Source: Rhizorhabdus phycosphaerae (lineage in GTDB: Bacteria > Pseudomonadota > Alphaproteobacteria > Sphingomonadales > Sphingomonadaceae). From it: DNA of 64,000 bases. Shown piece by piece: positions 8,815 through 28,017 of this stretch (the stretch's first letter is position 1; each line of letters starts with the position of its first letter). The translations under genes were made by a program, and so were the position numbers. The stretch spans positions 2,629,501 to 2,693,500 of the forward strand of contig NZ_CP049107.1 of NCBI RefSeq assembly GCF_011044255.1, written 5' to 3'. The notes beneath the pieces were generated by a model that saw only the letters and a program-made list of their open reading frames with translations, ran no database searches and was not told where the DNA came from.

Positions 8815-9419
8815 GACGGCAGGAGTCCCCGTGTCCGCAGATAGTCGAGCAGCGGCAGCAGAGGCAGACCCAATATGGTGAACTGGCTCCCATCGATCCG
8901 CGTAAAGAGCTGCACCCCGCGCCCCTCCAGCCGATAACCGCCGACGCAATGGCCGATCTCCGGCCATTCGGCGTCCAGATAGGCATCGACGAAGGCCTCG
9001 CTCAACGGCCGCATGTGCAGCGCGGCGACGTCGACATGGCGCCACACCGGCCGTCCGCCCTCGCACAGCACCGCCGCGCTCCAGAGGCGGTGCCGTCGGC
9101 CGGCCAGACGCAGCAGCAGGTCGCGCTGCTCCTCGCGGCTCGAGGCCTTGTCGATCATCCTGTCGTCGTCGAAGGCGACGGTCGAGTCACATCCGAGCAC
9201 GAGCGCGTCGGGAATACGCTGCGACAGGCGCGTCGCCTTGAACTCCGCCAGTGCGTCGGCAAGGTTGCGGGGCGAGATCGCTTCTGCACGCAATCCTTCC
9301 TTCATCGCCTCCTCGTCTACGCCGGCAGCCATCGGCTCGAAATCGACACCGGCCGCCGACAATATCGCGCGGCGCGAACTCGATTGCGAGGCGAGGATCA
9401 GGCGGGGTGCGCCTGTCAT
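8811..9419 (-). CDS. Maf-family nucleoside triphosphate pyrophosphatase
   Basis: 202-residue Maf/Ham1-like protein that hydrolyses noncanonical or excess nucleoside triphosphates; in bacteria the family is linked to septum control and nucleotide-pool cleaning. The N-terminal signature LILASQSSSRRAILSAAGV and the later VLGCDSTVAFDD (catalytic Asp) and a C-terminal HCVGGYRLEGRG loop are visible. It overlaps both neighbours by 4 bp (the PPDK-regulator gene upstream and aroE downstream), so the three genes are translationally coupled. Which Maf subfamily (dTTP/UTP or m7GTP) I cannot decide. Confidence 0.9.
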   Translation of the reverse strand: MTGAPRLILASQSSSRRAILSAAGVDFEPMAAGVDEEAMKEGLRAEAISPRNLADALAEFKATRLSQRIPDALVLGCDSTVAFDDDRMIDKASSREEQRDLLLRLAGRRHRLWSAAVLCEGGRPVWRHVDVAALHMRPLSEAFVDAYLDAEWPEIGHCVGGYRLEGRGVQLFTRIDGSQFTILGLPLLPLLDYLRTRGLLPS

Positions 9420-10249
9420 GCGTCGCTCCCCTGTTCGCGCTTTGCCGCGCGATCATTGGCAAGGTTGATGATCGCTGCGGCGGTTTCCTCGATCGAGCGG
9501 CGGGTCACATCGATCACCGGCCAGCTTCGGTCCGAGAAGATGCGGCGCGCGAAGGCGAGTTCAGCGACGACCTTCTCATGGTCGACATAGGCCGTTTCCG
9601 GCGACTGATTGAGCGAGAGCAGGCGGTTGCGTCTGATCTGGATCAGCCGCTCGGGACTTGTCGTGAGCCCGACGATCAGCGGATGGACCAGCGAATAGAG
9701 CGAGGGCGGCGGCGGTGACTCGACGACGAGCGGAACATTGGCGACCTTATATCCGCGATTGGCGAGATAGATCGAGGTCGGTGTCTTCGACGAGCGCGAC
9801 ACACCGGTCAGGATGATGTCGGCTTCCTCCCAATCTTCCGGGATCAGGCCATCATCATGGGCGATGGTGTACTGGATTGCCTCGACCCGCGCGAAATAGG
9901 CGGCATCGAGCATATGCTGCCGTCCCGGCCGCGCCAGAGCTTCCTGCCCGAGCAGCTGCGACAGGGCCTCGATGACCGGATCTAGCGCCGAGACGCTCGG
10001 CAATCCGAGCGCGTGGCAGCGCGATTCGAGCCGCTTGCGGATGTCGTTGTTGACCAGCGTGAAGATCACCAGCCCGGGCCGCTGCGCGATTTCGAGCAGG
10101 ATCCGGTCGAGATGCCCCTGGCTGCGCACCATCGGCCAGAAATGCTTGATCGTTTCCACCCCTTCGAACTGGGCGAGCCCGGCCTTGGCGATGTTCTCGA
10201 GCGTCTCGCCCGTGGAATCGGACAGGAGATGAAGGTGCAGACGGATCAT
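9416..10249 (-). CDS. Pyruvate,phosphate dikinase regulatory protein (DUF299 kinase/phosphorylase)
   Basis: 277-residue PPSR/DUF299 protein, a bifunctional ADP-dependent kinase and Pi-dependent phosphorylase that controls pyruvate,phosphate dikinase or PEP synthetase. Signatures are HLHLLSDSTGETLENI at the N-terminus and the P-loop-like GVSRSSKTPTSIYLANRGYKVANVP, split here as GVSRSSKTP and IYLANRGYK. The Met at 10249 (MIRLHLHL) fits the family start; 10267 is an alternative. In Caulobacter and Rickettsia this gene flanks the replication origin together with hemE, the same arrangement seen here. Confidence 0.92.
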   Translation of the reverse strand: MIRLHLHLLSDSTGETLENIAKAGLAQFEGVETIKHFWPMVRSQGHLDRILLEIAQRPGLVIFTLVNNDIRKRLESRCHALGLPSVSALDPVIEALSQLLGQEALARPGRQHMLDAAYFARVEAIQYTIAHDDGLIPEDWEEADIILTGVSRSSKTPTSIYLANRGYKVANVPLVVESPPPPSLYSLVHPLIVGLTTSPERLIQIRRNRLLSLNQSPETAYVDHEKVVAELAFARRIFSDRSWPVIDVTRRSIEETAAAIINLANDRAAKREQGSDA

Positions 10250-10295
10250 GATGTCATGCCCGTGCAACCGATGGCGATGTCGCCGGGGAAGAGTC

Positions 10296-10304
10296 TGTGG
10301 AAAA
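10296..10304 (-). promoter_or_regulatory. DnaA box (TTTTCCACA)
   Basis: Top strand reads TGTGGAAAA; the bottom strand TTTTCCACA fits the relaxed TTWTNCACA DnaA consensus with one change from TTATCCACA. It directly abuts a GANTC site (GAGTC, 10291-10295). Confidence 0.6.
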
Positions 10305-10387
10305 GCATGAGGATGGGGCTAGCGGAATGCTGGGGACGCTTTCAAGCGATGCTTTCGTCCCCGCTGAGCCGTCGTTCGTCCCGCGAT

Positions 10388-10396
10388 TCATCCACA
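10388..10396 (+). promoter_or_regulatory. DnaA box, one mismatch (TCATCCACA)
   Basis: TCATCCACA differs from TTATCCACA only at position 2. It overlaps a GATTC GANTC site at 10385-10389, so methylation state and DnaA binding could interact. Confidence 0.5.
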
Positions 10397-10419
10397 GCGG
10401 GTCATGATGGGAGCAGGTC

Positions 10420-10428
10420 TGTGGATAA
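10420..10428 (-). promoter_or_regulatory. DnaA box, perfect (TTATCCACA)
   Basis: Top strand TGTGGATAA is the exact complement of the consensus DnaA box TTATCCACA. It lies 16 bp upstream of the GANTC inverted repeat and is the strongest single DnaA site in the gap. Confidence 0.8.
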
Positions 10429-10443
10429 CGGGTATGACGCGAA

Positions 10444-10478
10444 TGACTCGCGGACTCCCCACGAGTCCCGCTGAGTCA
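10444..10478. repeat. Inverted repeat carrying four GANTC (CcrM) sites
   Basis: Arms TGACTC-GC-GGACTC and GAGTCC-CGCT-GAGTCA are near-perfect complements around a 5-nt centre. Each half holds two GANTC sites, starting at 10445, 10453, 10463 and 10473, i.e. at 8-, 10- and 10-bp steps, so the last three are on one face of the helix. CcrM methylates the A of GANTC in alphaproteobacteria. Confidence 0.8.
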
Positions 10479-10500
10479 AGTTGTTGGCAATTGCGCCGGT

Positions 10501-10509
10501 TGTGAATAA
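10501..10509 (-). promoter_or_regulatory. DnaA box (TTATTCACA)
   Basis: Top strand TGTGAATAA; the complement TTATTCACA matches the TTATNCACA consensus exactly. It is the box nearest the AT-rich stretch. Confidence 0.65.
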
Positions 10510-10540
10510 ACCCCGGCTCACACGCTCCTACAACAGCTTC

Positions 10541-10570
10541 AATTTCTCTTAAAAAGAATCAGAAAGTAAT
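10541..10570. other. AT-rich stretch, candidate DNA unwinding element
   Basis: 24 of 30 bases are A or T, directly before the hemE start codon and beside the DnaA boxes. The same segment must also hold the hemE ribosome-binding region (AGAAAG, 10561-10566) and one more GANTC site (GAATC, 10556-10560). Confidence 0.5.
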
Positions 10571-11608
10571 ATGATGGCCGCCTCGCCTGCCGAAACGCGC
10601 CCCCTGCTCGCCGTATTGCGCGGCGAACGCCGTGACCCGCCGCCGGTCTGGCTGATGCGGCAGGCCGGACGCTATCTGCCCGAATATCGCGAGCTTCGCG
10701 CGACCAAGGGCGGCTTCCTGGCGATGGCCTATGACAGCGACGCAGCCGCCGAGATCACGCTGCAGCCGATCCGTCGCTTCGGGTTCGACGGCGCGATCCT
10801 GTTCTCCGACATTCTCGTGATTCCCCACGCGCTGGGACAGGATCTGCGCTTCGAGGCCGGCGAAGGGCCCCGCCTGTCGCCGACGCTGCTCGACACGACG
10901 CTGGACGGACTCACCGCCGCCCCGGAGCGTCTGCTGCCGATCTATGGCACGATCGAGCGCGTGCGGAAGGCATTGCCCGCTGAAACCACCTTCCTCGGCT
11001 TCGCCGGCAGCCCCTGGACTGTCGCGACCTATATGGTGGCGGGCCAGGGCAGCAAGGAGCAGGCCGAGGCACGGCGTTTCGCCTATCGCGATCCGTCCGC
11101 CTTTGCCGCGATCATAGAGAGGCTCGTCGAGGCAACGACCGACTATCTGTCGCGCCAGATCGAAGCCGGCGTCGATGCCGTGCAGTTGTTCGACAGCTGG
11201 TCGGGCAGCCTTGCCCCCCGCGAGTTCGAACGCTGGGTGATTGCGCCCACCGCCGAGATCGTCCGCCGGCTTCACGAACGGCATCCGGGCACACCCATTA
11301 TCGGCTTTCCGAAGGGTGCGGGCGGCAAGCTGCCCGCTTATGCTCGGGAAACGGGAGTCGACGCGATCGGGCTGGATGAGACGGTCGACCCCATCTGGGC
11401 GAACCAGGTGCTGCCGCAGGGCCTGCCGGTTCAGGGCAATCTCGATCCGCTGGTGCTCATCGCAGGTGGCGAGGCACAGGATGCGGCAGTGGATGCCATT
11501 CGGGCATCTTTCCCCGATCGGCCGCATGTGTTCAATCTTGGCCATGGCATCCAGCTCGACACGCCGATCGCGCATGTCGAGCGGCTGCTCGCACGGATCA
11601 GAGGATGA
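10571..11608 (+). CDS. hemE: Uroporphyrinogen decarboxylase
   Basis: 345-residue haem-pathway enzyme removing four carboxyls from uroporphyrinogen III to give coproporphyrinogen III. The N-terminal signature PPVWLMRQAGRYLPEYRELR and the second signature GFAGSPWTVATYMVAG are intact, as is the C-terminal FNLGHGIQ with the catalytic-site His. Length is normal. It is the first gene on the right side of the probable origin, with the origin gap serving as its upstream region, and overlaps hemJ by 4 bp (ATGA). Confidence 0.97.
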   Translation: MMAASPAETRPLLAVLRGERRDPPPVWLMRQAGRYLPEYRELRATKGGFLAMAYDSDAAAEITLQPIRRFGFDGAILFSDILVIPHALGQDLRFEAGEGPRLSPTLLDTTLDGLTAAPERLLPIYGTIERVRKALPAETTFLGFAGSPWTVATYMVAGQGSKEQAEARRFAYRDPSAFAAIIERLVEATTDYLSRQIEAGVDAVQLFDSWSGSLAPREFERWVIAPTAEIVRRLHERHPGTPIIGFPKGAGGKLPAYARETGVDAIGLDETVDPIWANQVLPQGLPVQGNLDPLVLIAGGEAQDAAVDAIRASFPDRPHVFNLGHGIQLDTPIAHVERLLARIRG

Positions 11609-12066
11609 TGGACACGCCCATGCTGCTCGGCTTTCTCGGCAACGCCTATCTCTGGGTCAAATCCGCCCATCTGATCTTTGTGATCTTCTGGATGGCGGGA
11701 CTCTTCATGCTTCCGCGCTTCTTCATCTATCACCATGCCGCGGCCCCCGGTTCGGCTGAGGATCGCGCCTGGATCGAGCGCGAGCGGCGGCTGCGGTCGA
11801 TCATCCTCAACCCGGCGATGATCCTCGTCTGGCTGTTCGGCCTGATGCTCGCCTTCGACCAGGGTCTGTGGGGCACGGCCTGGTTTCACGCGAAGTTCGC
11901 GACGGTATTCCTGCTGTCGGGATTCCATGGCTGGGCGATCGGCTATGGCAAGAAGATGGCGGCCGGCTATCGTGCGCCGTCCGACAAGGCGCTGCGCCTC
12001 ATGAACGAGATTCCGGGAATCGCGACCGCGATCATCGTGATCCTGGTGATCGTCCGCCCCTTCTGA
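11605..12066 (+). CDS. hemJ: HemJ, protoporphyrinogen IX oxidase (membrane)
   Basis: 153-residue integral membrane protein of the HemJ/UPF0093 family that oxidises protoporphyrinogen IX to protoporphyrin IX. About four transmembrane helices are visible. The conserved haem-ligand His is in KSAHLIFVIFWMAGL, followed by LPRFFIYHH, and the conserved Lys is in WFHAKFATV. It is coupled to hemE by a 4-bp overlap, a common pair in alphaproteobacteria, and no hemG or hemY type enzyme is in the window. Confidence 0.93.
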   Translation: MMDTPMLLGFLGNAYLWVKSAHLIFVIFWMAGLFMLPRFFIYHHAAAPGSAEDRAWIERERRLRSIILNPAMILVWLFGLMLAFDQGLWGTAWFHAKFATVFLLSGFHGWAIGYGKKMAAGYRAPSDKALRLMNEIPGIATAIIVILVIVRPF

Positions 12067-22203: not shown

Positions 22204-23106
22204 TCAGATGGGTTCTCCGCTCAACCGCTGACAGATCAGATCAAGCTGATCGAGAGTCGAGTAGCTGATCGAAACTTTCCCGCCTTTTTCCGTATGTTCG
22301 ATCTGAACCTTCAGGCCCAATATGTCACCGATTTGCCGTTCGAGTGCCTGGATATCGGCATCGGCGACGGGGGGTGCGGCGGGTGTCGCACGGCTGGGCC
22401 CACTGCCCTTCCCCGCTGGCTTGGCCTTCTTGGTAAGTGCTTCGGTATCGCGCACCGAGAGATCCTGCGCGACGACCTGCTCGGCGAGTGTCTCGGCATC
22501 GGGCGATGTGATCAGCGCGCGGGCATGGCCCATGCTCAGCCGCCCTTCGGCCAGCAGCGAGCGGACGCTCTGGGGCAGGTCGAGCAGACGCAGCAGGTTG
22601 GCGACATGGCTCCGCGACTTGCCCACCAGCTTGCCCAGGGCTTCCTGGGTATGGCCGAAGTCGTTCACAAGCCTTTGATAGGCTTCCGCTTCCTCGATCG
22701 CATTGAGATCCTGGCGCTGCACATTCTCGACGATCGAAAGCTCGAGCGTCTCGCTGTCGTTCAGTTCGCGGACGATCGCGGGAATTTCATGGATCTGCGC
22801 GCGCTGGGCGGCGCGCCACCGGCGTTCGCCGGCGATGATCTGATATCCGCCGTGGCGCGGATGCGGCCGCACGACGATCGGTTGCAGCAGGCCACGCTCG
22901 CCCAGCGATCGGGCGAGGTCTGCGAGCGCCTCTTCGTCGAAATGCCGGCGCGGCTGATCGGGATTGGGCTCGATCGCCGCGACCTGGAGCATCTGGATGC
23001 CCGCCGGGCGCGGCGCGCCCGGCGCGAGCGGTTGCTCCGTGGCGACGTCGCCCAGCAGCGCGGACAGGCCGCGCCCAAGGCCCCTGCGTGGCGCGTCGGC
23101 GCTCAT
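22204..23106 (-). CDS. parB: Chromosome partitioning protein ParB
   Basis: 300-residue CTP-dependent parS-binding clamp that nucleates the centromere complex and loads SMC. The N-terminal RRGLGRGLSALLG contacts ParA; the CTPase signature GERRWRAAQRAQ (GERRxRA) and the helix-turn-helix LGKLVGKSRSHVANLLRLL follow; the C-terminal dimerisation domain ends the protein. The start is the ATG at 23106, overlapping parA's stop by 4 bp. Three parS-like sites lie 1.4-3.4 kb upstream. Confidence 0.96.
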   Translation of the reverse strand: MSADAPRRGLGRGLSALLGDVATEQPLAPGAPRPAGIQMLQVAAIEPNPDQPRRHFDEEALADLARSLGERGLLQPIVVRPHPRHGGYQIIAGERRWRAAQRAQIHEIPAIVRELNDSETLELSIVENVQRQDLNAIEEAEAYQRLVNDFGHTQEALGKLVGKSRSHVANLLRLLDLPQSVRSLLAEGRLSMGHARALITSPDAETLAEQVVAQDLSVRDTEALTKKAKPAGKGSGPSRATPAAPPVADADIQALERQIGDILGLKVQIEHTEKGGKVSISYSTLDQLDLICQRLSGEPI

Positions 23107-23882
23107 GCGGCCTGCGCCTTCTTGGTGAGACGGGCGATGCATTCACGGGCGAGCGAGATATAGGCCTCCGAACCGGGACAGCGATGGTCGTAGATGAGCG
23201 CCGGCACGCCGTGGCTCGGCGCTTCCGACAGCCGGACGTTGCGGGGAATCACCGTTTCGAACACGACGTCGCCGAGGACGCTGCGAACGTCGGCGGCGAC
23301 CTGCTCGGACAGGCGGTTGCGACGGTCGTACATCGTCAAAGCAACGCCGAGGATGGACAGCTGCGGATTGAACCGGGCACGCACCCGCTCGATCGTCTGC
23401 AGGAGCTGGCTGAGGCCCTCCAGGGCGAAGAACTCGCATTGGAGCGGTACGAGCATCATGTTCGCCGCGACCAGCGCGTTGACCGTGAGCAGGCCAAGCG
23501 AAGGCGGGCAGTCGATCAGGCAGACATCCCAGCGATTCTCGTCCTGGGCGAGCGCGTCGTGGAGCCGGTGCGTGCGCTTGTCGACTTCGATCAGTTCGAT
23601 TTCGGCGCCGCTCAGGTCGACCGTGGCCGGGACGATGTCGAGCCTGGGAACCTGCGTCGGGACGACGGCTTCGTCGAGCGTGCAGTCGCGACGCAGCAGC
23701 TCGTAGCTGCTCTGGCCGCGTGCACCCTGCTGCAGGCCGAGCCCGGTGGACGCATTGCCCTGCGGATCGAAGTCGACGAGAAGCACGCGCCAACCGGTCG
23801 CCGCGAGGGCGGTGGCGAGGTTTATCGCGGTCGTGGTCTTGCCCACCCCGCCCTTCTGGTTCGCTATGGCGATCCGGATCAT
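23103..23882 (-). CDS. parA: Chromosome partitioning ATPase ParA
   Basis: 259-residue Walker-type ATPase that binds DNA nonspecifically and moves ParB-parS complexes. The deviant Walker A is KGGVGKTTTAINLA at residues 9-22, the switch I region is DFDPQGNASTGLG and Walker B-like is CLIDCPPSLGLLT. Length and start (ATG 23882) fit chromosomal ParA. The start overlaps rsmG's stop by 4 bp, so mnmG-rsmG-parA-parB are all coupled by 4-bp overlaps. Confidence 0.96.
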   Translation of the reverse strand: MIRIAIANQKGGVGKTTTAINLATALAATGWRVLLVDFDPQGNASTGLGLQQGARGQSSYELLRRDCTLDEAVVPTQVPRLDIVPATVDLSGAEIELIEVDKRTHRLHDALAQDENRWDVCLIDCPPSLGLLTVNALVAANMMLVPLQCEFFALEGLSQLLQTIERVRARFNPQLSILGVALTMYDRRNRLSEQVAADVRSVLGDVVFETVIPRNVRLSEAPSHGVPALIYDHRCPGSEAYISLARECIARLTKKAQAA

Positions 23883-24544
23883 CGCTGTCCCTTTGACGGT
23901 GCCTTGGCCTTGATCGTCCTGCCGGGCATAGGCGCGACGGCCGATGCCACGATGATCGCCGCCTCGGTATCGGTCATGCTCGGAACGATGCTGAACACAC
24001 CCTGCCATGTTCCTGTGACGGCTTCCAGTTCGGATGCGGCGCTGCGTCCTTTGGGCAGAAGCCAGAGCGTTTTTTCGTCGGCAAACGGCCTGGCGAGGGG
24101 AAGCAGTCGGTCGAGGGGTGCGAAGGCGCGCGCGCTGATGACATCATAGCGGCTTGGCGCGAGCGTCTCGAGGCGCTGGCCCGCTACGCTCACCCGGTCA
24201 TGCAGTGCGAGACGCTCGATCATCGAACGGAGGAAGTCGATGCGCTTCCGGCGGGACTCGACCAGCGTCACGAACAATCCGGGGCGCATGATCGCCACGA
24301 CCATGCCGGGAAAACCGGCGCCCGAGCCCAGATCGAGCCAGCGGGTGGCTGTCTCTGGTGCGAGGTCGAGCAGCTGCGTCGAATCGAGAATATGACGGGT
24401 CCACATATGTTCGGCCGTCGACGCTGCGATCAGGTTCTGATGGGCCATCTCCGCCCGGACCATCGCGATGAGCTGCTCGAGTCGCTCGACTGTTTCACGT
24501 GGAACGGCGTGGATGACCTTCTCGCGTGCCTCGTCCTCGGTCAT
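23879..24544 (-). CDS. rsmG: 16S rRNA (guanine-527-N7)-methyltransferase
   Basis: 221-residue SAM methyltransferase (GidB) that methylates G527 of 16S rRNA; its loss in other bacteria gives low-level streptomycin resistance. The SAM-binding motif is [16 protein letters not shown] at about residues 70-85, and [11 protein letters not shown] and [16 protein letters not shown] are family signatures. Its 5' part contains a parS-like palindrome (24491-24506), read in frame as VPRET. It overlaps mnmG and parA by 4 bp each. Confidence 0.95.
24491..24506. promoter_or_regulatory. parS: parS-like ParB-binding site (1 mismatch)
   Basis: TGTTTCACGTGGAACG has 15 of 16 bases of the TGTTTCACGTGGAACA form of parS. 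It lies inside the rsmG coding region, about 14 kb from the probable origin. Confidence 0.75.
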
Positions 24545-26415
24545 GCCGCGAGCTTTCGTGCATGGACCATGATCGCCGCCAGGGCTGCGGGGGTTATCCC
24601 CCGGATTCGGCCTGCGGCCGCGAGGTCGTCGGGACGGGCCGCATTGAGCCGCTCGATCATCTCGTTCGACAGTCCCGCTATCGCGGCATAGTCATCGATA
24701 TCCGATAGCCCGAGGCGCTGGTCGGCGCGCAGCCGGGCAATCTCCTCATCCTGTCGCGCAAGATAGGGCGCGTACCGGCAGTCTTCGATCAGCTCCGCGC
24801 GCACCGGGTGCGATATCGTCGCCCATAGCGGAAGGACCGACGCGATATGCTCGTCACGCACATCGGGGTATCGAAGCCAATCGGCAACAGACCGGCGGCT
24901 ATGGTCGGCGGTCACATTTGCTCCGGCCTCGATCATCTGTTCGGCGGTCGCCAACGTCTGGGCAAGTAGCCCCCTCCCCTGGCCCTTCTCGGCTTCCCGT
25001 GCCGAGAACCAGCGACGCCTTTTAGCGCCGACGGCGCCCAATCCGATCGCCCAACCGGTCAAGCGCGTGGAGGCATTGTCGGCTCGCAGCCGTAGCCGAT
25101 ATTCGGCACGCGCGGTCAGCATGCGATAGGGTTCCGACACGCCCTGCAATGTGAGATCGTCGACCATCACACCGATATAGCTGGATGCGCGGTCGAACAG
25201 GACGGGCTCGCCCCCTGCAGCATGAGAGGCTGCATTGAGGCCCGCGACCAGCCCCTGGGCCGCAGCCTCCTCATAGCCCGTGGTGCCGTTGATCTGCCCG
25301 GCACAGAAGAGGCCCGGCAAAGCGCGCAGCGCAAGACCCGCTGTCAGGCTGCGTGGGTCGATATAGTCATATTCGACAGCATAGCCCGGCTGGACGATTT
25401 GGACCTTCTCGAGCCCGGGCACCGTTCTCAGCATGTCGAGCTGGACATCTTCGGGGAGCGATGTGGACACGCCATTGGGGTAGATGAGGTGATCCCCCAA
25501 CCCTTCTGGCTCGAGGAAGATCTGGTGGCCGTCACGGTCGCCGAACCGGTGGACCTTGTCTTCGATCGAAGGGCAATAGCGTGGACCGGTGCCTTCGATC
25601 ACGCCCGAAAACAGCGGTGAGCGGTCGAGACTCCGGCGGATGACGTCATGGGTCTGCGCATTGGTGCGGGTGATGGCGCAGGCGAGCTGCGGTACGAAAC
25701 GAGCTCCGTGGAGAGGCGAGAAGGTCCAATCGGCTTCGTCCGATGGCTGGCGGTCGAGACCCGCCCAGTCGATAGACCTGCCGTCCAGGCGCGGGGGCGT
25801 ACCGGTCTTCAGGCGGCCAAGAGGCAGGGCAAGCTCGCGGAGCTGGTCGGCCAGCCCCACCGCTGCAGCCTCGCCGACGCGCCCACCCGTGCATGACGCC
25901 ATACCGAAATGAAGCTTGGCGTTGAGAAAGGTGCCGGTTGCGAGGACAACCGCCTTTGCGCGCAGCTCACGTCCATCCTTGAGCCGGACGCCCCGTGTTT
26001 CACGTGGAACATCGCCGAGGAGCAGCCGCTCTACCGACCCCTCGACGATGGCCAGACCGTCCAATTCACCGAGGAGATCGTGGACAGCGGCGCGAAACAA
26101 CTGGCGATCGGCCTGGACACGAGGGCCCTGGACCGCCGAGCCTTTGCTGCTGTTGAGCATGCGATAATGGATCGCCGCGCGATCGGCAGCGCGCGCGATG
26201 ATACCGTCGCACGCATCAACCTCGCGAACGAGATGGCCTTTGCCAAGACCGCCAATGGCCGGATTGCACGACATCGCGCCGATCATGTCCCGGCGCATGC
26301 TGACCAACGCGACCGACGCGCCCATCCGCGCTGCAGCGGCTGCCGCTTCGCAACCGGCATGCCCACCGCCCACGACGATAACGTCGAACCGATCCCCGTC
26401 ACCACTATGTTGCAT
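24541..26415 (-). CDS. mnmG: tRNA uridine-5-carboxymethylaminomethyl enzyme MnmG
   Basis: 624-residue FAD protein that, with MnmE, installs the cmnm5 group on wobble uridine 34 of certain tRNAs. The FAD motif [19 protein letters not shown] is at residues 15-33, [19 protein letters not shown] is the folate/NADH-side signature, and [19 protein letters not shown] is the second GidA signature. The C-terminal helical domain that binds MnmE is complete. A perfect parS lies in the coding sequence (25996-26011). Another parS-like site sits in the 56-bp gap before the start. Confidence 0.96.
25996..26011. promoter_or_regulatory. parS: parS ParB-binding site (perfect palindromic core)
   Basis: TGTTTCACGTGGAACA is a full match to a common chromosomal parS form. 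It is inside mnmG, read on the coding strand as VPRET, about 15.5 kb from the probable origin. Confidence 0.85.
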
Positions 26416-26453: not shown

Positions 26454-26469
26454 CGTTCCACGTGGAACA
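26454..26469. promoter_or_regulatory. parS: parS-like site between mnmG and mnmE
   Basis: CGTTCCACGTGGAACA has 15 of 16 bases of TGTTCCACGTGGAACA. It is the only one of the three in a noncoding position, between the mnmG start and the mnmE stop. Confidence 0.75.
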
Positions 26470-27788: not shown

Positions 27789-28017
27789 TGCCCGTACGAC
27801 CGATCTGATCGAACATGGAGCGCCACATGTTCATCCCGGCCTCGCCCATCGGCATCCAGTTTCGCACCATCTGGTCGAGCACGTCGGGGGTGATGCCCTC
27901 CTCGATCATCGTCTTCATCTTATCCACATAAGCGTCGTGGACGACCGAGAGATCGGGCAGGCCCATGAAGCGACGCGCTTCCTCGGGCGTGCAGTCGACA
28001 TCGACGGTGATCTTCAT
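27775..28017 (-). CDS. DUF6489 family protein
   Basis: 80-residue small protein starting MKITVDVDCTPEEARRFMGLPD, a conserved opening shared by sphingomonad and rhizobial homologues that I recognise as DUF6489. The rest is helical and acidic-to-neutral (VHDAYVDKMKTMIEEG, QMVRNWMPMGEAG) and ends in a Gly/Ser tail. There is no signal peptide. It precedes mnmE with a 14-bp overlap. An in-frame ATG four codons upstream (28029) is less likely. Function unknown. Confidence 0.78.
   Translation of the reverse strand: MKITVDVDCTPEEARRFMGLPDLSVVHDAYVDKMKTMIEEGITPDVLDQMVRNWMPMGEAGMNMWRSMFDQIGRTGSGGK

Follow-up and report, generated by a model that had tools for sequence, protein, structure and literature searches.

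Where does the chromosome of Rhizorhabdus phycosphaerae begin its replication? The question is raised by a short gap that separates a DUF299 gene from hemE and that a preliminary description had taken for a probable chromosomal origin. The gap lies within the window, by which we mean the whole 64,000-nucleotide stretch analysed (2,629,501-2,693,500 of a single closed contig of 4,327,794 bases, ~4.33 Mb), and corresponds to chromosomal coordinates 2,639,750-2,640,070; smaller coordinates below are positions of the window. The flanking genes, a cluster of DnaA boxes, an A/T-rich element, a switch in GC skew and the nearby parS sites and parAB genes are those of an origin on the hemE side, and together with an anatomy conserved among relatives they support the original proposal. 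We predict from these sequence features, with high confidence, that this sphingomonad chromosome has its DnaA-dependent oriC in the gap. A hemE-side oriC is already published for the Sphingomonadaceae (PMC4741004), and the locus is of a known kind; what the comparison of sequences appears to add is a clustered, positionally conserved set of GANTC sites, with exact CtrA and IHF sites rare or absent.

A cluster of DnaA boxes beside hemE

The gap and its main features are the following, where columns refer to an alignment of 123 sphingomonad gaps described below:

9416-10249, minus strand, left flank: DUF299/COG1806 Kinase-PPPase gene (PF03618, E 7.5e-93)
10250-10570, proposed oriC: DUF299/hemE intergenic gap of 321 bp, ends set by the open reading frames
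10296-10304, minus strand, DnaA box 1, TTTTCCACA, one mismatch; column filled in 79 of 123 gaps
10388-10396, plus strand, DnaA box 2, TCATCCACA, one mismatch; column filled in 14 of 123 gaps
10420-10428, minus strand, DnaA box 3, exact TTATCCACA; column filled in 48 of 123 gaps
10501-10509, minus strand, box 4, TTATTCACA, one mismatch; retained in the two nearest relatives, column with fewer than 6 boxes in 123 gaps
10541-10570, A/T-rich 30-mer (24 of 30 A/T) adjoining hemE, candidate unwinding element by composition only
10571-11608, plus strand, right flank: hemE, uroporphyrinogen decarboxylase (PF01208 URO-D, E 5.9e-110)

For the DUF299 gene the ATG start was taken, while the mechanical list of open reading frames has an upstream TTG at 10267; hemE may start at its second ATG, 10574, where the two nearest relatives align. 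The same pair is reported to flank the origins of Caulobacter and Rickettsia (PMC1914354), in agreement with the preliminary description.

The gap contains one exact and three one-mismatch 9-mers, among them those at 10420 and 10501 at the positions originally given, and the A/T-rich stretch is likewise present. Four boxes compare with 0.06 expected, and none of 5000 dinucleotide shuffles gave as many. The window as a whole, with 6 boxes against 3.2 expected, reaches a total that 10 of 100 shuffles attain, so that the total is unremarkable; it is the packing of four of the six into 214 bp that stands out. The genome holds at least 223 boxes at up to one mismatch, and a cluster scan over 1.191 Mb of it (60 boxes) found one other pair within 400 bases and no other triple. 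Box 4 need not be a DnaA site, since its column holds so few boxes among relatives.

The richest A/T 30-mer begins within the final 120 bases of the gap in all 52 gaps listed, with ties taken rightward. Scans of the gap for sigma-70 promoters and terminators found none, and an Rfam search of window positions 9000-12000 returned no match; DnaA-trio motifs were inspected by eye alone, and we claim none. Elsewhere in the window, a lone exact TTATCCACA lies at 27920-27928, near the parS sites and directly before a gene that we take to be mnmE-like.

Position of the predicted origin on the chromosome

GC skew was sampled first over 40 stretches of 20 kb plus the window, and later over 297 non-overlapping 4-kb tiles, which cover 27.5% of the genome and are by choice denser around origin and terminus. 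A two-switch fit on a 10-kb grid, with 60 tile bootstraps and 30 permutations, gave 2.64 Mb as the position of the origin (2.565-2.70 at the 2.5-97.5% limits of the bootstrap), matching the gap, and 0.36 Mb (0.35-0.36) as that of the terminus, with a score of 5.78 as against at most 1.92 across the permutations. The genome-wide skew, which the preliminary description had named as a check on its proposal, thus switches at the gap. It is negative from 0.364 Mb to the window and positive or about zero from the window round to 0.364 Mb. Against this count two stretches within the negative half, at 1,987,001 and 2,420,001, which break the pattern, and the cumulative G-C curve inside the window, which hardly departs from its minimum between 2 and 16 kb and has its lowest value at the 6-kb step instead of at 10.3 kb; the resolution of GC skew is tens of kilobases.

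Two further signals were tried and dropped. Strand counts of GGGNAGGG, which we take to be the FtsK site, do not change direction until about 2.66-2.96 Mb, which counts against the proposed position, and they are too low for a sharp switch and hence for an independent pointer to the origin. A scan for dif-like sites that allowed two mismatches yielded 66 rows, the sole one-mismatch site lying at 3,983,873; the palindrome at 364,282, which coincides with the skew maximum, departs from the motif at two positions, as do 64 other rows, and dif was therefore not used as evidence.

The partition system lies to the right of hemE:

22204-23142, minus strand, parB (ParB_N, HTH_ParB, ParB_C)
23103-23966, minus strand, parA, start approximate (AAA_31, E 3.7e-62)
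24492-24505, parS, GTTTCACGTGGAAC
25997-26010, parS, GTTTCACGTGGAAC
26455-26468, parS, GTTCCACGTGGAAC

The relaxed parS palindrome GTTNCACGTGNAAC has exactly three exact sites in the genome, all of them 13.9-15.9 kb from hemE and adjoined by parAB; three one-mismatch places lie elsewhere in the genome. The nearest parS is found 4.5-13.9 kb from hemE in 26 of 26 family genomes (G183 left out), a few of which have additional parS-like sites elsewhere. One genome, G108, has 32 exact parS-like palindromes dispersed around its chromosome, compared to 2-7 in the other 26.

In many bacteria oriC lies at dnaA, and promoters also carry DnaA boxes. The origin might accordingly be sought at the start of the record, which is at dnaA (the Bac_DnaA match begins at record position 421), leaving the hemE gap as a DnaA-regulated promoter region. 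We consider this extremely improbable. The skew has no switch at dnaA, both sides being positive or about zero (+0.022, +0.000 and +0.040 in stretches L233, L232 and L010); only two isolated one-mismatch boxes occur within 5 kb of it, so that the better cluster at another gene that would have spoken against the preliminary description was found neither there nor elsewhere in the 1.191 Mb; and about 1.67 Mb separate dnaA from the exact parS sites. An origin at dnaA is thus already strongly disfavoured. The gene itself lies 1.69 Mb from the gap, toward the terminus, or 0.39 of the genome from hemE. In each of 27 single-contig genomes of the family, ours included, the best dnaA match is separated from hemE by 0.10-0.45 of the genome length. 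The distances fall into two groups, 0.32-0.45 in 12 genomes and 0.10-0.20 in 15, which look like the result of an old rearrangement.

An origin in some other intergenic stretch a few tens of kilobases away, with purely regulatory boxes in the hemE gap, would agree with the skew fit, which alone resolves only 2.565-2.70 Mb, and could draw on the exact box at 27920. It is nonetheless very improbable: the window holds no second box cluster, the boxes remain at hemE in relatives where the other flank has been lost, and the origin of Caulobacter is reported to occupy the homologous gap (PMC1914354).

The genome also encodes a second hemE, 71% identical to the first (G000:C1:1747036-1748046; L110 9036-10055), which we rejected as the mark of a second origin at 1,747,036 given its surroundings, presumably of bacteriochlorophyll/carotenoid (bch/crt)-like, hemC- and hemF-like genes, with no DUF299 match in 19 kb. 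The strain may carry a cluster for aerobic anoxygenic phototrophy around this copy. Among 196 other genomes, only G008 has two hemE matches.

Conserved anatomy in sphingomonad gaps

We collected the homologous gaps from two sets of loci. From 59 relatives (L051-L109), 51 gaps were used, the others being dropped for a contig end (L061), a partial and distant DUF299 match (L075) or no DUF299 (L055, L060, L067, L073, L094 and L101); from 80 further loci in public genome records, 76 were used (L116, L120, L124 and L150 left out). With the window these make 128 gaps, or 123 after removal of five near-duplicates. Gap ends are approximate for the L051-L109 set and for the loci from other families, and all column counts rest on one MAFFT alignment.

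The window and the 51 relatives of the first set together have 93 boxes at up to one mismatch, compared to 2.4 in shuffled sequences, and 231 GANTC sites, compared to 66. The 123 non-redundant gaps have 256 boxes, compared to 6.8; counted against the oriC reading, 12 of them lack any box at this threshold. The boxes recur at fixed columns of the alignment, led by 10296, 10420 and 10408 and followed by 10516, 10376 (plus strand, 18 of 123) and 10388. Three places in this part of the alignment complete the anatomy:

10408-10416, plus strand, place of a box facing box 3; box in 37 of 123 gaps, degenerate here
10474-10498, plus strand, conserved block AGTCAAG-TGTTGGCAAT; its first 13 bases are a one-mismatch IHF-like match
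10516-10524, plus strand, place of another box; box in 22 of 123 gaps, degenerate here

Our genome has boxes at columns 10296, 10388 and 10420, and none at 10376, 10408 and 10516. Its nearest named relatives are Sphingomonas sp. Root720 (L111, hemE 86% identical) and Rhizorhabdus histidinilytica (L112, 85%), which both retain boxes 1, 3 and 4, the TTATTCACA at 10501 being common to all three genomes; at the place of box 2, CATCCACA is retained in both. Within the conserved block, TGTTGGCAA (10481-10489) occurs at up to one mismatch in 48 of 123 gaps, compared to 9 of 123 shuffles, and 39 of the 48 occurrences lie 80-110 bases ahead of the hemE end; it is not a DnaA box, and the promoter scan did not score it.

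All five members fetched of one genus (g13) have no DUF299 gene beside hemE, while 1-3 boxes, 5-7 GANTC sites and the nearby parS remain. A search for DUF299 in six genomes, run without a positive control, found none, and the neighbour is also missing from the fetched loci. Because boxes, GANTC sites and parS stay with hemE in this genus, hemE, and not DUF299, is the lasting landmark of the predicted origin. The A/T-rich region upstream of hemE at locus L094 (G166:C7:1379907-1381267), also with no DUF299, has 12 boxes at up to one mismatch in about 330 bp; one parS of that genome lies 12 kb off and two more about 0.55 Mb off.

The small number of boxes had suggested that sphingomonad origins use fewer DnaA contacts than the well-studied ones. 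This did not hold up: the 123 sphingomonad gaps average 2.1 boxes and 32 gaps from other alphaproteobacterial families, which are somewhat longer, 2.3 (73 boxes; 32 of 40 loci used, from 40 of the 112 genomes in which hemE was matched), while L094, with its 12, belongs to the same family. In any case, box counts in sequence cannot count DnaA contacts.

GANTC sites and a CcrM-like methyltransferase

Between the central boxes and the A/T-rich stretch lies the most crowded part of a set of seven GANTC sites, the other three being at 10291, 10385 and 10556:

10445-10477, four-site GANTC cluster (10445, 10453, 10463 and 10473)

The density of GANTC is 23 per kb in the gap, compared to 1.56 in all the DNA read and 1.7 in 232 intergenic-like stretches, a crude set based on open reading frames that includes the gap itself, and no other 321-bp place in 883 kb of the genome has seven or more sites. 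The sites are shared with relatives: the 123 gaps have 527, compared to 160 in shuffled sequences, and 81, 73, 43 and 31 of them have a site in the columns at 10445, 10463, 10533 and 10473, respectively. GANTC shows the largest excess in these gaps (3.3-fold) of the 24 pentamers of this type, followed by AGNCT (2.35-fold), whose excess perhaps comes from AGGCT between facing boxes. The commonest spacings are 28, 17, 10 and 18 bases (30, 26, 20 and 19 pairs), with 5 bases next (17 pairs), whereas shuffled sequences average 0.6 pairs per spacing and reach 1.5 at most. Judged from sequence counts, the clustering extends beyond sphingomonads in weaker form, with 111 sites compared to 60 in the 32 gaps of other families. 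Among the matches listed, we found no publication that describes clustered GANTC sites in the chromosomal origin of a sphingomonad; as the subscription literature lies mostly outside the search, we make no claim of novelty.

The genome has a single match to the RAMA domain, above the Pfam cut-off, in a CcrM-like frame of 393 amino acids, whose front presumably resembles an adenine methyltransferase of the CcrM kind; among 14 control genomes, only Caulobacter has a RAMA match. Methylation of GANTC is reported for Sphingomonas sp. AAP5 (PMC8067484), and GANTC-rich origins for repABC replicons (PMC6090056).

Sites for two other regulators are scarce. The CtrA motif TTAA-N7-TTAA has no exact match in the gap and one with a single mismatch at 10538, by eye not kept in the two nearest relatives. 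Of the 123 sphingomonad gaps, 1 has an exact site (0.4 expected), and exact sites are also rare in other families, with three sites in 3 of 32 gaps (a count of 6, compared to 0.4, when each site is taken on both strands). The IHF consensus has no exact match in the gap or in any of the 123 gaps; the one-mismatch IHF-like 13-mer at 10474 is by eye kept in both relatives.

Proposed mechanism

By the known class, DnaA-ATP would bind boxes 1, 2 and 3, the last two being the central ones, and oligomerise toward the A/T-rich stretch at 10541-10570 beside hemE, which would then melt and let the helicase in; at the parS sites, which lie 14-16 kb to the right, bound ParB would subsequently help to separate the new origins. 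In E. coli, initiation leaves the clustered methylation sites of oriC hemimethylated. By analogy, though less surely, each initiation here may leave the GANTC cluster at 10445-10477 hemimethylated, and its methylation by CcrM may help to time or limit re-initiation. A role of CcrM in initiation is a hypothesis, less sure than the DnaA steps, and control of hemE would be an equally plausible use of the sites.

This last alternative, in which the cluster controls the transcription of hemE or DUF299 through CcrM and GcrA and not replication, competes solely with the CcrM step of the oriC explanation, and we give it an even chance. It agrees with the average over-representation of GANTC in alphaproteobacterial intergenic DNA, reported as more than 1.5-fold (PMC3973325), with the methylation-dependent binding of GcrA (PMC3667746), and with reports that CcrM is dispensable for initiation (PMC6090056) and that its depletion or excess in Agrobacterium changes ori2 with no significant effect described for the DnaA-dependent ori1 (PMC11514494). 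Less easily explained by it are the density in the gap, far above the intergenic-like mean and unique in the 883 kb, and the persistence of the cluster where DUF299 is lost, although there it could still serve hemE; and Cori is reported to need full methylation to re-initiate (PMC2217572). On this point the sources, as far as their statements go, disagree, PMC2217572 holding that Cori must be fully methylated and PMC6090056 that CcrM is not required.

A bolder form of the CcrM step would have sphingomonad origins gated by CcrM methylation instead of CtrA: the conserved GANTC array, which lies to the hemE side of the central DnaA boxes and ahead of the unwinding element, would be fully methylated once per cycle and by its state license or block DnaA assembly, in the manner of GATC and SeqA in E. 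coli and in a lineage with hardly any exact CtrA sites at its origins. Both the seven GANTC sites and a CcrM-like methyltransferase with a RAMA domain, which such gating presupposes, are present. We nevertheless consider it unlikely, because the contrast in CtrA sites (3 of 32 gaps compared to 1 of 123) is only half as large as the raw count had indicated and because Agrobacterium ori1 is not significantly responsive. The conserved array still offers a concrete test, in sphingomonads, for CcrM acting on alphaproteobacterial initiation. Independently of this, a likely origin ~1.7 Mb from the record start at dnaA means that analyses of gene dosage, strand bias and coordinates should be re-based.

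Comparison with known origins

The predicted origin does not differ in kind from those of other Sphingomonadaceae, for most of which DoriC predicts a hemE-side oriC; conserved putative boxes and an unwinding element are reported as well (PMC4741004). As here, oriC lies beside hemE in Sphingopyxis granuli TFA, in the DoriC entries and in Novosphingobium PP1Y (PMC4741004, PMC4059872); the boxes at 10408 and 10516 that are common in relatives are missing here, and the TTATTCACA at 10501 is shared with the two nearest ones. Counted against the oriC reading, the origin of Novosphingobium PP1Y is reported to have a DnaA gene nearby in addition to hemE (PMC4059872), unlike the present one.

Cori of Caulobacter crescentus shares the hemE/COG1806 flanks, the DnaA boxes and the A/T-rich region, but is described with five CtrA sites and an IHF site (PMC1914354), where we find none exact and one one-mismatch match for each. 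With oriC of E. coli the resemblance is in the clustering of methylation sites, which there are GATC, served by Dam and SeqA (PMC2865523), and here GANTC, accompanied by a CcrM-like methyltransferase.
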